Source of the DNA: Clostridiales bacterium | GTDB lineage: Bacteria > Bacillota > Clostridia > Caldicoprobacterales > UBA3941 | DNA: 60,508 bases | Direction of reading: 5' to 3' | Assembly: GCA_012518535.1 (NCBI GenBank) | Contig: JAAYRX010000160.1 | Span: forward strand, 1 to 60,508 | Shown here: in pieces, positions 31,233 through 43,468 of the stretch | Layout: the number at the start of each line of letters is the position of its first letter | Numbering within the stretch: the first letter of the stretch is position 1 | The notes under the pieces: generated by a model | What the model saw: the letters and a program-made list of their open reading frames with translations, nothing else | What the model was told of the DNA's origin: nothing | Database searches by the model: none | Program-made: the position numbers and the translations under genes

Positions 31233-31250
31233 GTTTATGTACCGTATAGA

Positions 31251-31317
31251 ACTCATATAATCCTAATAATTGGTTTGGGAGTTTCTACCAGGCAGCCGTA
31301 ACTGCCGGACTATGAGT
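31251..31317 (+). promoter_or_regulatory. Purine (guanine-type) riboswitch aptamer
   Basis: P1 is ACTCATA (31251-31257) paired with TATGAGT (31311-31317). The conserved junctions are present: TATAATCC, the P2 loop region, GTTTCTACC, and GGACTATGAG. The specificity base in the GACTAT junction is C (position 74 in xpt numbering; adenine types have U), so it should bind guanine or hypoxanthine. P3 is GGCAG/CTGCC. The 3' half of P1, TGAGTGA (31313-31319), is complementary to TCACTCA (31372-31378) in the terminator loop, giving mutually exclusive anti-terminator pairing. Ligand binding should switch expression of the downstream permease off. Confidence 0.95.
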
Positions 31318-31357
31318 GATATGCACGATATTGGAAGGTCAGTTGGCCTTGCGGTAT

Positions 31358-38267: not shown

Positions 38268-39530
38268 ATGATGAAGGTTTTAGTTGTAGGTGGGGGAGGA
38301 AGGGAGCACGCCATTATATGGAAGCTAAGTCAAAGCCCAGGGATTTCCGTTCTATATTGTGCACCGGGCAATGGTGGAATAGGTAGAATGGCCACCTGTG
38401 TAGGTATAGAAGCTACGGATATAAGAAGTATGGTACAGTTCTCAAAGGATAATGCTATCGATCTGGTAGTTGTAACCCCGGATGATCCCTTGGCCATAGG
38501 TATGGTGGACGCCTTGGAAGAAGCAGGCATAAGGGCATTTGGCCCTAGAAAGGACGCTGCAATAATAGAGAGTAGTAAGGTGTTTGCCAAGGGCCTTATG
38601 AAAAAGTATGATATACCAACCGGTGATTACAAGGTGTTCTCGGACTACAATGAAGCTCTGACCTATTTAAAGGAGACAAATTATCCCCAGGTAATAAAGG
38701 CCGATGGCTTGGCCTTGGGTAAAGGGGTTATCATCACCAAGAACTTTGCCGAAGCCGGTAAGGCTTTGGAAGAGATAATGGTAGACAAGATCTTTGGCAC
38801 TGCTGGAAATCAGGTTATAATAGAAGAGTTCCTGGTGGGGCAAGAAGTCTCCCTATTAGCTTTTAGTGATGGGCACACCATTGTACCTATGGTTAGCGCC
38901 CAGGATCATAAGAGAGCCTTTGATGGGGATAAGGGACCAAACACCGGGGGAATGGGAGCCTTTTCTCCAAGTAGGGTGTATACACCTGAAATTGCCAATA
39001 TAGTTGAGACTGAAATACTGGAACCGACTATACAGGCTATGAATAAGGAGGGTCGTCCCTTTAAAGGAGTTCTATTTCTAGGCTTGATTCTAACCCAGGA
39101 TGGTCCAAAACTCCTGGAGTATAATGCAAGGTTCGGTGATCCGGAGACCCAGGTAGTTTTACCAAGGCTGAAAACCGATCTTTTGGATATTTTCTTGGCA
39201 GTGGCGGATGAAAGACTGGATGAAATAGACATTGAATGGGAAGACAGTGCTGTGGCCTGTGTAGTATTGACATCAGGAGGTTATCCCGGTTCCTATAAAA
39301 AGGGTTATCCTATCCGAGGTCTGGAAAACTTGGATGGAAGTCATGATACTATAGCATTCCATGCGGGAACCCGTTGGCAGGAAGACAGGTTTTTGACCGA
39401 TGGAGGCAGGGTTTTAGGAGTAACAGCAGTAGCGGAGGATCTGGACAGGGCAGTTAAAAATGCTTATAAAGGTGTAGATTTAATCAGCTTTAAGGATATG
39501 CACTATCGCAGGGATATAGGTTTAAAGTAG
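38268..39530 (+). CDS. purD: Phosphoribosylamine-glycine ligase
   Basis: A 420-residue ATP-grasp GAR synthetase. It shows VVGGGGREHAIIWKL, KADGLALGKGVII, EEFLVGQEVSLLAF, PNTGGMGAFSPSRVYTPE and EYNARFGDPETQVVLPRL. It couples phosphoribosylamine from PurF to glycine. The start is ATG at 38268 (or the adjacent ATG at 38271) behind AGAAGG. It is the last gene of the pur run and is followed by a terminator. Confidence 0.96.
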   Translation: MMKVLVVGGGGREHAIIWKLSQSPGISVLYCAPGNGGIGRMATCVGIEATDIRSMVQFSKDNAIDLVVVTPDDPLAIGMVDALEEAGIRAFGPRKDAAIIESSKVFAKGLMKKYDIPTGDYKVFSDYNEALTYLKETNYPQVIKADGLALGKGVIITKNFAEAGKALEEIMVDKIFGTAGNQVIIEEFLVGQEVSLLAFSDGHTIVPMVSAQDHKRAFDGDKGPNTGGMGAFSPSRVYTPEIANIVETEILEPTIQAMNKEGRPFKGVLFLGLILTQDGPKLLEYNARFGDPETQVVLPRLKTDLLDIFLAVADERLDEIDIEWEDSAVACVVLTSGGYPGSYKKGYPIRGLENLDGSHDTIAFHAGTRWQEDRFLTDGGRVLGVTAVAEDLDRAVKNAYKGVDLISFKDMHYRRDIGLK

Positions 39531-39602: not shown

Positions 39603-39632
39603 AAAGGTCTCTGAATGTTTTCAGAGACCTTT
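39603..39632. terminator. Bidirectional terminator between purD and dapB
   Basis: A perfect 13-bp stem, AAAGGTCTCTGAA (39603-39615) with TTCAGAGACCTTT (39620-39632). On the minus strand it is followed by TATATTTTA, on the plus strand by a weaker T-rich flank, so it serves the convergent pur and asd-dapB units. Confidence 0.88.
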
Positions 39633-39706: not shown

Positions 39707-40927
39707 TCAAAGTCCAAAACCTTCAATTAGAGTATCCATTGTTATTTTTTCATAGACCTTATCTATAAAACAATCGATCTTTTGATTGGAGGTTGCCGAA
39801 GCCTTGATTGGGATATTATGCCTGTTGATCAATTCGAAGACGGTTGCAGCCACTCGGGGTTGCTGTTCCAGTCCCAACCCTTCCAGAGTTATCTTTATGA
39901 TATCGGTGTCCATCTTTATAGCCAGGTTTTTATCTTTGGCAGCCAAGCCACGACAGAATGCTTCCGCTTTTTCCAGATCCTTTGCAGAAAGTGCAAAGGT
40001 AATATCGGTCATTCTATCAGCAGGGGAGATTTGGCTGATGAGCTCCAAATAATTATTTTCGCCTGCAAACTCCTTGAATATGTTGGCAATTGTGTTGAGC
40101 TTGGCAGGTGCATTACGGATGGATACCAGAATAATATCAGCCTGAGTTGTGATGCTGGTAACCGGGCTTCTCTCATCAAGTACATTTTTCATGTTATACA
40201 GACCTGGACGTCTATTGGCCATATACCTGACTGCCCTGAGGGCACCTACGGCGAAGATCTGCTTAGAATACGCGGTGTGTTCAATCTCGATTACCTCATC
40301 CTTTCCTGCGAACATAACCGTATGCTGACCTACAAGAGTACCGCCACGTATGGCATGGATACCCATATCCGATGGTGATCTCATATCATTCTTGCTATGT
40401 CTACCGTATATATAGTGCTTGGAATTTAAGAAGACCTCGTTAATAGCATTTGCCAGGGCATAAGCAGTCCCACTAGGTGCATCTACCTTTTCATTATGGT
40501 GTTTTTCTATGATCTCAATGTCGTAGGAATCTCCAAGAACCTGTGCTGCTTGCTGGATCAATTGATACATAAGGTTAATTCCTATAGACATATTTGCAGC
40601 TTGAAAGATGGGAATCTCCTTGCTATAAGCCTCGATGCTTTGCTGTTCCTTTTCATTAAAGCCAGTTGTAGCAATAACTAAAGCACATTTTTGAGTATGA
40701 GCCCACTTTAATAAGGAAGGCAAGGCCTGGGGCAGTGAAAAATCTACAACAACATCACATTCCACCGGGCACTCATCCAAGGAGGAATAAACCGGAAATG
40801 GGTTTTCAAAGGCATCAGGGTACCTGTCAATACCGGCGACTATCCTGATGTCTGACTGACTGGCCGCCATTGAAGCAACCACCTGGCCCATCTTACCATT
40901 ACATCCGTGGATAATTATATTTATCAT
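39707..40927 (-). CDS. dapB: Dihydrodipicolinate reductase fused to C-terminal tandem ACT domains
   Basis: About 406 residues, against the usual 250-270 for DapB. Residues 1 to about 252 are a full DapB: NAD(P) motif IIIHGCNGKMGQVV, ATTGFNEKE, EKHHNEKVDAPSGTA with the catalytic His and Lys, and the normal family ending GLYNMKNVL. Then come about 150 extra residues resembling the aspartokinase regulatory region: ILVSIRNAPAKLNTIANIF with DITFALSAKDLEKAEAF (first ACT), and IKITLEGLGLEQQPRVAATV with FELINRHNIPIKASATS (second ACT). It reduces HTPA to tetrahydrodipicolinate for lysine and peptidoglycan; the ACT pair probably senses an amino acid, perhaps lysine. The ATG at 40927 has AGGAG 11 bases upstream; an upstream GTG overlaps that site. 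It follows asd by 27 bases. Confidence 0.92.
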   Translation of the reverse strand: MINIIIHGCNGKMGQVVASMAASQSDIRIVAGIDRYPDAFENPFPVYSSLDECPVECDVVVDFSLPQALPSLLKWAHTQKCALVIATTGFNEKEQQSIEAYSKEIPIFQAANMSIGINLMYQLIQQAAQVLGDSYDIEIIEKHHNEKVDAPSGTAYALANAINEVFLNSKHYIYGRHSKNDMRSPSDMGIHAIRGGTLVGQHTVMFAGKDEVIEIEHTAYSKQIFAVGALRAVRYMANRRPGLYNMKNVLDERSPVTSITTQADIILVSIRNAPAKLNTIANIFKEFAGENNYLELISQISPADRMTDITFALSAKDLEKAEAFCRGLAAKDKNLAIKMDTDIIKITLEGLGLEQQPRVAATVFELINRHNIPIKASATSNQKIDCFIDKVYEKITMDTLIEGFGL

Positions 40928-40954: not shown

Positions 40955-41965
40955 TTAAAGGTCGTTATTACTCCAATACTCCATTAGTTTCTCAGCAATT
41001 TGAACCGTGTTGGTAGCAGCTCCTTTTCTAATATTATCTGCTACAACCCACAAATTAACACCATGATCCAGGCTTTCGTCTCTCCGCATCCTACCAATAA
41101 AGACCTGGTCTGAACCATTAGCATTGACAGGCATGGGGTACACATTGTTATCAGGATCATCTATTACTTCGACTCCGGGGGCTCCCGATAGAACTTCCCT
41201 TAACTCATCCAGATTAAATTCCTTCTTAAGCTCTACATTAATGGATTCACTGTGGCCATTATAGACAGGAACCCTTACAGTTGTAGCGGTGATCCTGAGA
41301 CTATCATCACTAAGAATTTTCTTGGTCTCTTCTATCATCTTCATTTCCTCTTTGGTATATCCGTTATCTAAAAAGGAATCGATGTGGGGGATGCAGTTAT
41401 CAAAGATCGGGTGAGGGAATTTCTTAGGTTCTATTCCATCTATACCGTTCTTAAGGTCATCATAGCCTGCTACACCGGCTCCAGACACGGCCTGATATGT
41501 GGAATAAACAATTCTCTTAATTCCATAACGATCATGGAGGGGTTTTAAGGCCACCACCGCCTGGATGGTAGAACAGTTTGGATTAGAGATGATGCCCTTG
41601 TGTTTTAAAATCTCTTCAGGGTTTACCTCGGGCACAACCAGAGGAACGTCTTTGTTCATTCTCCATGCGCTACTGTTGTCTATAACCACTATGCCCTTTT
41701 CTGCGGCTATAGGGGCATAGGTCTTGCTTATATCCCCACCTGCCGAAAATAATGCAATATCAATATCCTTATTATCAAAACAAGATGGTGTAAGCTCTTC
41801 TATTACGTGCTCTTTTCCCATAAAAGAGATAGCTTTACCGGCAGAACGGGCTGATGCAAACATAAAACACTTATCAATAGGCAGATTCCGCTCTTCCAAT
41901 ACTTCCAGAAATTTCTGGCCAACCATACCTGTAACGCCTACTATGGCAAGATTGTATTTTTTCAT
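40955..41965 (-). CDS. asd: Aspartate-semialdehyde dehydrogenase
   Basis: A 336-residue enzyme reducing aspartyl phosphate to the semialdehyde, the branch point for lysine, threonine and methionine. It shows the NADP motif IVGVTGMVGQKFLEVLEER, SAGGDISKTYAP, the catalytic cysteine in SNPNCSTIQAVVAL (about 130), SGAGVAGYDDL, and the His of RVPVYNGHSESINVE. GGAGGAGG lies 6 bases before the ATG. It is the first gene of a minus-strand asd-dapB operon. Confidence 0.96.
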   Translation of the reverse strand: MKKYNLAIVGVTGMVGQKFLEVLEERNLPIDKCFMFASARSAGKAISFMGKEHVIEELTPSCFDNKDIDIALFSAGGDISKTYAPIAAEKGIVVIDNSSAWRMNKDVPLVVPEVNPEEILKHKGIISNPNCSTIQAVVALKPLHDRYGIKRIVYSTYQAVSGAGVAGYDDLKNGIDGIEPKKFPHPIFDNCIPHIDSFLDNGYTKEEMKMIEETKKILSDDSLRITATTVRVPVYNGHSESINVELKKEFNLDELREVLSGAPGVEVIDDPDNNVYPMPVNANGSDQVFIGRMRRDESLDHGVNLWVVADNIRKGAATNTVQIAEKLMEYWSNNDL

Positions 41966-42049: not shown

Positions 42050-42088
42050 AAACGAAAGCGGCTGATGTTTCACCAGCCGCTTTCGTTT
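42050..42088. terminator. Symmetric bidirectional terminator
   Basis: A perfect 15-bp stem, AAACGAAAGCGGCTG (42050-42064) with CAGCCGCTTTCGTTT (42074-42088). On the minus strand it ends the 57-aa gene at 42101 and insulates the asd promoter. Confidence 0.9.
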
Positions 42089-42100
42089 ATTTTGTCATTG

Positions 42101-42274
42101 CTATCTAACAAAGATTACGAAAGCAGTTAGCTCTCCACCAAACATGTGCTCAGTGACAATCCGAGGACTATTAATCCGGGGACCAAGGTATAAAATGCGG
42201 TGTTCTATACCTTTCGGCATCTTTTCCTTTGAGATTCCTTCACAGAATTCCGCATTCTCAGGAAACTTACTCAT
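42101..42274 (-). CDS. Small protein of unknown function (57 aa)
   Basis: A soluble 57-residue protein starting MSKFPENAEFCEGISKEKM. GAGGTG lies 8 bases before this ATG; the frame is open 8 codons further but without a site. Support for its reality is the good ribosome binding site and the 15-bp terminator 13 bases past the stop. The conserved-looking block PRINSPRIVTEHMFGGELTA gives no family that I recognise. It is divergent from dapA. Confidence 0.6.
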   Translation of the reverse strand: MSKFPENAEFCEGISKEKMPKGIEHRILYLGPRINSPRIVTEHMFGGELTAFVIFVR

Positions 42275-42298
42275 AAAAGATGCACCTCTAAACTGCAA

Positions 42299-42592
42299 AT
42301 ATAATATTAAAAACCTGATAACTATTTGCTCAGATTAAAGATATTATCAACTCATGATACCATCCATATAAATGTATGTCAAATGATTTTTTATATAGGT
42401 AAGCCCGGTAGTGTAAGTAAAGATTGAACATATTTTACCTGATTTAGGATAAGTCTGACAAAAGGAAACAGGTAAATTCAGCAATGTTAACAGTTGATAT
42501 CATGGATTATATTTTTCATATCATTTACATGGCCACGGACATATAGTAAAATAGAATTGAGTTTTCTTACACAGATACAAGGAGGCATTGGT
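42299..42592 (+). other. Upstream region of dapA
   Basis: This 294-base gap has no gene. It holds an 8-bp inverted repeat, TTTACCTG (42434-42441) and CAGGTAAA (42469-42476), 27 bases apart. AT-rich promoter-like sequence follows, but no well-spaced -35/-10 pair. It does not match the lysine riboswitch, which would need a much longer structured leader. Confidence 0.4.
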
Positions 42593-43468
42593 ATGAGAGA
42601 ATGGGGAAGATTGCTTACAGCTATGGTTACACCCTTTGATAGGGACATGAATGTTGATTATGAAAAGGCTGTCCAGCTTGGGAAAAGGATCGTTGAGGAC
42701 GGAACCACTGCTTTGGTTGTGGTTGGAACCACTGGGGAATCGCCAACTATAACTGATGAGGAAAAGTATGAGCTGTTTAAAATACTTAAAGACAGGATAA
42801 ACGTACCCATAATAGCCGGAATTGGTACCAATTGTACACGGGCTACCATAGAGACAGGCAAACTGGCTGTAAAAGCAAAGGCTGACGGGGTATTGGTGGT
42901 AGTTCCATATTACAACAAGCCCAACCAACAGGGTCTTTTCGCTCATTTTAAGGCCGTAGCCGAAGCCATTGAGCTGCCCATGATGCCATACAATGTCCCA
43001 TCCAGGACTGGTGGTAATATGGAAGCAGAAACCTCTATTGCTCTATCCAAGATCCCCAATATAGTAGCACTAAAGGAAGCCAGTGGAAATATAGACCAGA
43101 TAACCAGGATTATAGCAGGTTGTTCCAAGGACTTTTTAGTCTATTCGGGAGACGATGGATTTACCCTGCCCACCCTTTCTGCAGGAGGATATGGGGTTGT
43201 CAGCGTTGCTGCCCAGGTTGCCGGTCGTAAGATAAGAGATATGATTGAAGCATATGTAAGCGGGGATACTAAGAAAGCTGCCGAGCTCCATCAAATGCTC
43301 AGTCCCTTGTTTAAAGCTTTATTTGTAACCACGAATCCCATACCTGTAAAAGCAGCTCTAAACCTTATGGGAATGGATGTAGGCGGGCTGCGTCTGCCTC
43401 TGGTGGAAGCAGATGACAGGGTAAAGGAGATACTTAAGAGAGAAATGAGTGCTTTAGGACTTGTATAA
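42593..43468 (+). CDS. dapA: 4-hydroxy-tetrahydrodipicolinate synthase
   Basis: A 291-residue class I aldolase condensing pyruvate with aspartate semialdehyde. It has VVGTTGESPTITDEEK, PYYNKPNQQGLFAHFK, the catalytic Tyr in PYNVPSRTGGN and the Schiff-base Lys161 in IVALKEASGN. The ATG at 42593 has AAGGAGG at 7-base spacing; the frame is open 33 codons further but that segment is not family-like. It is separate from the asd-dapB operon across the divergent 57-aa gene. Confidence 0.96.
   Translation: MREWGRLLTAMVTPFDRDMNVDYEKAVQLGKRIVEDGTTALVVVGTTGESPTITDEEKYELFKILKDRINVPIIAGIGTNCTRATIETGKLAVKAKADGVLVVVPYYNKPNQQGLFAHFKAVAEAIELPMMPYNVPSRTGGNMEAETSIALSKIPNIVALKEASGNIDQITRIIAGCSKDFLVYSGDDGFTLPTLSAGGYGVVSVAAQVAGRKIRDMIEAYVSGDTKKAAELHQMLSPLFKALFVTTNPIPVKAALNLMGMDVGGLRLPLVEADDRVKEILKREMSALGLV

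Follow-up and report, generated by a model that had tools for sequence, protein, structure and literature searches.

In the window analysed here, a 60,508-nucleotide stretch of DNA from a Clostridiales bacterium (order Caldicoprobacterales, family UBA3941), 4-hydroxy-tetrahydrodipicolinate reductase (DapB) continues into a C-terminal pair of ACT units that is, by sequence and predicted fold, a tandem regulatory module of the aspartokinase type. This dapB-ACT architecture is real, conserved and built from known parts, and is apparently undescribed. The transplanted ACT pair probably alters the activity of DapB by binding a small-molecule effector, for which an end product of the lysine/diaminopimelate branch is the most likely candidate. 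A literature search, with subscription journals mostly outside its reach, found neither a DapB-ACT protein nor an allosteric DapB, and we know of no feedback control of DapB as a normal feature of the enzyme.

Structure of the fused dapB-ACT gene

The fused gene and its parts are located as follows.
39707..40927, minus strand: dapB-ACT, encoding a 406-residue 4-hydroxy-tetrahydrodipicolinate reductase with a C-terminal tandem ACT module; intact in six genomes of the family
40175..40927, minus strand: DapB catalytic part, residues 1-251; TIGR00036, with GCNGKMG dinucleotide motif and EKHHNEKVDAPSGTA catalytic motif
39923..40156, minus strand: first ACT unit, residues about 258-335; beta-alpha-beta-beta-alpha in the predicted model, covered by aspartokinase models and PDB chains
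39710..39922, minus strand: second ACT unit, residues about 336-406; ACT_9, ACT_7 and predicted model

The frame comprises 406 codons and a stop, with its ATG at 40927 on the minus strand, and the original prediction of a full-length DapB followed in frame by a two-unit ACT tail was correct in frame, coordinates and strand. The DapB part matches TIGR00036 with 223 bits over residues 1-251 (cut-off 122) as well as both Pfam DapB_N and DapB_C. GCNGKMG and EKHHNEKVDAPSGTA are both present and intact, and the catalytic and dinucleotide motif residues are largely invariant in the 20 fusions compared. Judged by the full-length match and the intact motifs, this part is a complete DapB, with predicted NAD(P)H-dependent reductase activity. 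It has the same catalytic part, with nucleotide-binding and catalytic motifs, and the same fold as known DapB (TIGR00036; 1dih, 1arz, 1vm6); however, the matched PDB DapB chains are about 215-280 residues long and lack ACT domains, whereas the window DapB has an extra 155-residue tail.

DapB and ACT are the only domains in the chain, and no amino-acid kinase domain was found by domain search. Pfam ACT_9 matches the second unit at 35-38 bits (cut-off 27), where ACT_7 also matches, and the tail alone (residues 252-406) aligns with the last ~155 positions in models of aspartate kinase, the best of which is NF005154 (76 bits, E=3.5e-21). A profile of the relatives' tails matched the solved aspartokinases 3l76, 2re1, 3aaw and 5yei with E values of 1e-29 to 1e-60. 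The tail modelled alone (mean pLDDT 88, pTM 0.82) is predicted to adopt a tandem ACT fold that superposes on aspartokinase regulatory subunits with TM-scores of about 0.84-0.90, and the whole-protein model (pLDDT 86, pTM 0.64) contains both the DapB fold and the tandem ACT fold, the orientation of the two relative to each other being uncertain at this pTM. The same fold is found with full-length coverage in the aspartokinase beta subunit (2dtj, 3aaw, 5yei, 2zho); in contrast to that subunit, the window tail has no kinase domain in its chain, is attached to DapB, lacks the threonine-type pocket residues and, in the window's family, has several lysine-type residues changed. The aspartokinase-like tandem ACT assignment made in the original prediction is therefore borne out by domain search and fold comparison.

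For the tail, pairs with a usable dS give a dN/dS of 0.01-0.27, comparable with that of the DapB part, and of about 0.03-0.06 within the window's own family; some pairs were saturated and give no estimate. Purifying selection on the tail is strong.

Distribution and origin of the fusion

Among 291 genomes that sample the class, 18 contain an uninterrupted fusion, counted as a match over the whole query without a stop, and in several of them it lies on a single contig. All six genomes of the window's family and most examined genomes of the order have it intact, and it is carried by contigs of the cultured Caldicoprobacter algeriensis and C. oshimai. It is also present in contigs labelled Spirochaetota, one of them a 4.8-Mb chromosome, and Desulfobulbaceae. 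No dapB other than the fused gene was found in the window genome, in either Caldicoprobacter or in several other genomes. One member of the order (G028) has two fused dapB-ACT genes, L046 and L047 on contigs C24 and C56, or is a mixed bin.

The source genome is a fragmented draft of 246 contigs, so the fusion might have arisen from misassembly or a frameshift in a single metagenome-assembled genome. The same intact frame, however, recurs in the five further genomes of the family, in the Caldicoprobacter contigs and in the single-contig genomes G008, G074, G107 and G180, with the fusion of G074 sitting on a contig of 3,135,972 bases. Its recurrence in many independent genomes rules out a sequencing or assembly artefact, the chance of which we put at practically nil.

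Other Clostridia commonly have the gene order asd-dapA-dapB-(dapD)-lysC, in which lysC encodes a normal aspartokinase. At least ten families (f7, f19, f24, f28, f30, f46, f65, f66, f72 and f75) have a separate tandem-ACT gene behind dapB; it has its own start codon and usually lies within tens of bases of dapB. A phylogenetic tree was built from 78 ACT modules, comprising operonic lysC tails, 19 stand-alone genes and 37 DapB tails. The fused DapB tails form one clade (37; 98/97) and the stand-alone genes form one group (19; 100/99) that is sister to it, and the ACT ends of operonic lysC aspartokinases adjoin both. Given that the three kinds of module each occupy their own side of a branch and that the fused and stand-alone ones are sisters, a single departure of the module from an aspartokinase is most likely, after which either the stand-alone or the fused form may have come first. 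Three loci of Eubacteriaceae (L107, L113 and L125) have a second ACT-only gene beside lysC; in a second tree those of L107 and L113 fall away from the dapB-linked stand-alone genes, which looks like a separate duplication. The aspartokinase of L070, labelled Lutibacter sp. B2, groups with Clostridia sequences, a case of possible mislabelling or contamination.

A tree of the DapB domain places the proteins from Spirochaetota and Desulfobulbaceae inside the group of Clostridia fusions, which suggests that dapB-ACT was transferred as a unit. Three unfused DapBs of the window's order also nest among fused ones, suggesting that the tail was lost repeatedly in the order, and no decayed ACT remnants were found behind the unfused dapB genes of that order. 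This nesting implies that the catalytic part works without the tail, and that the tail is regulatory, not catalytic.

Operon organization and lysine riboswitch

The following features surround the fused gene.
40955..41965, minus strand: asd, aspartate-semialdehyde dehydrogenase; TIGR01296 452 bits, sharing the operon with dapB and preceding it by 27 nt
42120..42298, minus strand: lysine riboswitch aptamer RF00168; 111.8 bits (gathering 30), full model 1-182
42050..42088, minus strand: intrinsic terminator of the riboswitch, an 18-bp stem followed by a T run
42079..42124, minus strand: possible antiterminator, read from sequence, from complementarity between GCTTTCGT (42124-42117, which overlaps the 3' end of the aptamer) and ACGAAAGC (42086-42079, in the 5' arm of the terminator)
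42354..42382, minus strand: promoter-like TTGACA-17-TATCAT ahead of the riboswitch, its second hexamer preceded by TG; consensus match only, 11/12 positions
39603..39632, minus strand: terminator-like hairpin between dapB and a convergent gene ending at 39530; consensus match only
42584..43468, plus strand: dapA, divergent and outside the riboswitch operon; TIGR00674 333 bits

The original prediction rightly placed asd directly upstream in the dapB operon, but it missed the lysine riboswitch, seeing none ahead of asd or dapA, and took this as being in line with protein-level control. This was wrong, as the RF00168 aptamer lies just upstream of asd and is the only lysine riboswitch found in this genome. 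The riboswitch leader folds far better than shuffles (z=-6.4), and pairing of GCTTTCGT with ACGAAAGC would give a classical antiterminator. A lysine riboswitch precedes the operon at 18 loci with the fusion and at 9 with split genes, and was not found in the Spirochaetota or Desulfobulbaceae loci searched. A riboswitch with a terminator on the dapB-ACT operon would make control two-layered: the ACT module would provide fast control of enzyme activity, and the riboswitch slower control of expression. A purine riboswitch (RF00167, 73.7 bits) is also present in the window at 31233-31332 on the plus strand, upstream of co-directional purine genes.

The same aptamer and intrinsic terminator precede asd in RF00168 lysine operons of Clostridia. 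Lysine-riboswitch operons have been catalogued, including asd-dapA-dapB of Mahella australiensis, and the passages of that catalogue consulted here make no mention of an ACT fusion (PMC5584792). Unlike in the catalogued operons, dapA in the window lies outside the riboswitch operon; operonic dapA is gone in the window's family, and the window dapA, the only copy found, is about 45% identical to the operonic dapA of related families. Window DapA lacks most of what we take to be the E. coli-type lysine-site residues, which makes lysine control at the DapA step unlikely, and such control in place of control at DapB was rejected on this ground.

Aspartokinases and the putative effector pocket

Two aspartokinases, one DapG-type and one PRK09034-type, were found in the window genome, and both match full-length models through the C-terminal regulatory region. 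The original prediction held that feedback control had been moved to, or duplicated on, the reductase step, and proposed checking whether an aspartokinase of the same genome lacks its ACT domains. Both aspartokinases found keep their ACT ends, so control was added rather than moved, and removal of regulation from aspartokinase is rejected for these two kinases; the draft is 85% complete, and a third kinase may be absent from it. The DapG-type gene adjoins the dipicolinate synthase genes DpaA and DpaB (L001 976-3681, contig C89 of G000).

Type A denotes the aspartokinases that score highest for the family, grouped as L129-L146 in the tree that also holds L107 and L113. Within the order, all 16 genomes in which no type A aspartokinase was found have the fusion, and all five genomes with an unfused dapB have a type A aspartokinase. 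The genomes compared are related, and this tracking of the fusion by type A absence is only suggestive.

Pocket positions are numbered by C. glutamicum (Cg) LysC, with D274, G277, A279 and N374 taken by us as the threonine-type residues; this choice and the ligand-pocket roles of D274, G277, N374 and D294 are in part our assumption. Cg D294, Q298, T380, S381 and E382 are kept almost throughout the operonic lysC, fused and stand-alone modules, and the threonine-type residues are mostly not kept in any of the three. S381, E382, T361 and Q298 are listed as feedback-affecting sites (PMC10464499). The window's family has A, N, I and P at positions D274, G277, A279 and N374, and of the lysine-type positions in the window Q298, T380 and S381 are kept, D294 is E and E382 is N. 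Counted at positions kept in at least 85% of the other fusions, the departures of the family include N292Y, D294E, M354L, G359R/Q/K and E382N/S.

Lysine or threonine feedback had been predicted. Threonine is disfavoured, given that its pocket residues are mostly missing in fusions, and the lysine half of the claim fits nearly all fusions, where the lysine-type residues are kept, but is weakest for the window's family, where several of them are changed. A pocket of the lysine kind in most members of the protein group makes lysine the likely effector there. In the window's family, the changed pocket residues indicate that the ligand has probably changed, been lost or come to be bound with altered affinity, and lysine as the effector is least certain for the window's own protein. 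The stem of this family measures 2.04 in the tail tree and 0.29 in the DapB tree; we take this long tail stem, with strong constraint after it, to reflect a shift in function and not decay.

Proposed mechanism and alternative explanations

An effector would bind the two-unit ACT module on the DapB tail, and binding would alter DapB activity, presumably by inhibition, in the manner of the ACT pairs of aspartokinase. The DapA product can leave for spore dipicolinate, and DapB catalyses the first step beyond that exit, where control would make sense here but not in carriers without spores; the dipicolinate branch was rejected as a general reason for the fusion, which is also present in Spirochaetota and Desulfobulbaceae. 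Counting against lysine control, strong inhibition by lysine would also cut cell-wall diaminopimelate where the fused DapB is the only DapB. In a broader proposal, which we regard as tentative and rather unlikely as a whole, DapB would be under allosteric control in these lineages, exerted either by the ACT tail or, in ten or more further families of Clostridia, by a separate ACT protein encoded right after dapB, and the pocket of the window's family would have been retuned from lysine to another ligand. Meso-diaminopimelate is one example, suggested by the alteration of two acidic positions, one to neutral, and the gain of a basic or polar residue.

The tail and the stand-alone ACT protein might instead act in trans, pairing with aspartokinase ACT domains in the style of the C. 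glutamicum-type beta subunit and tethering or regulating the kinase, not DapB. The best fold matches do include the free beta subunits 2dtj, 2zho and 5yei, and the stand-alone genes are of beta-subunit size, but the closest aspartokinase type was not found in the window's and Caldicoprobacter families, where the fusion is always present, the aspartokinases remaining there are of distant types, and the module stays with dapB as a neighbour or fused to it; we therefore consider action in trans improbable. We give the same low standing to a structural tail that would serve oligomer assembly or stability without binding an effector, in the window's family at least. The changed pocket positions and long stem branch of that family speak for such a role, yet the changes hit positions that almost every other member keeps, and the remainder of the fold is constrained, as retuning predicts; relatives have also lost the tail cleanly several times. 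Effector-dependent control of DapB by the transplanted ACT pair is the explanation we favour.

Biological significance

If this explanation is true, a feedback module has left one enzyme of a pathway, persisted as a neighbouring gene and become part of a later enzyme. The small ACT genes that follow dapB in many Clostridia would gain a testable function as a regulatory subunit of DapB, and Caldicoprobacter is a cultured host that carries the fusion and is open to direct testing. In this uncultured anaerobe and many of its relatives, a new step of the pathway seems to have acquired a brake at the protein level.
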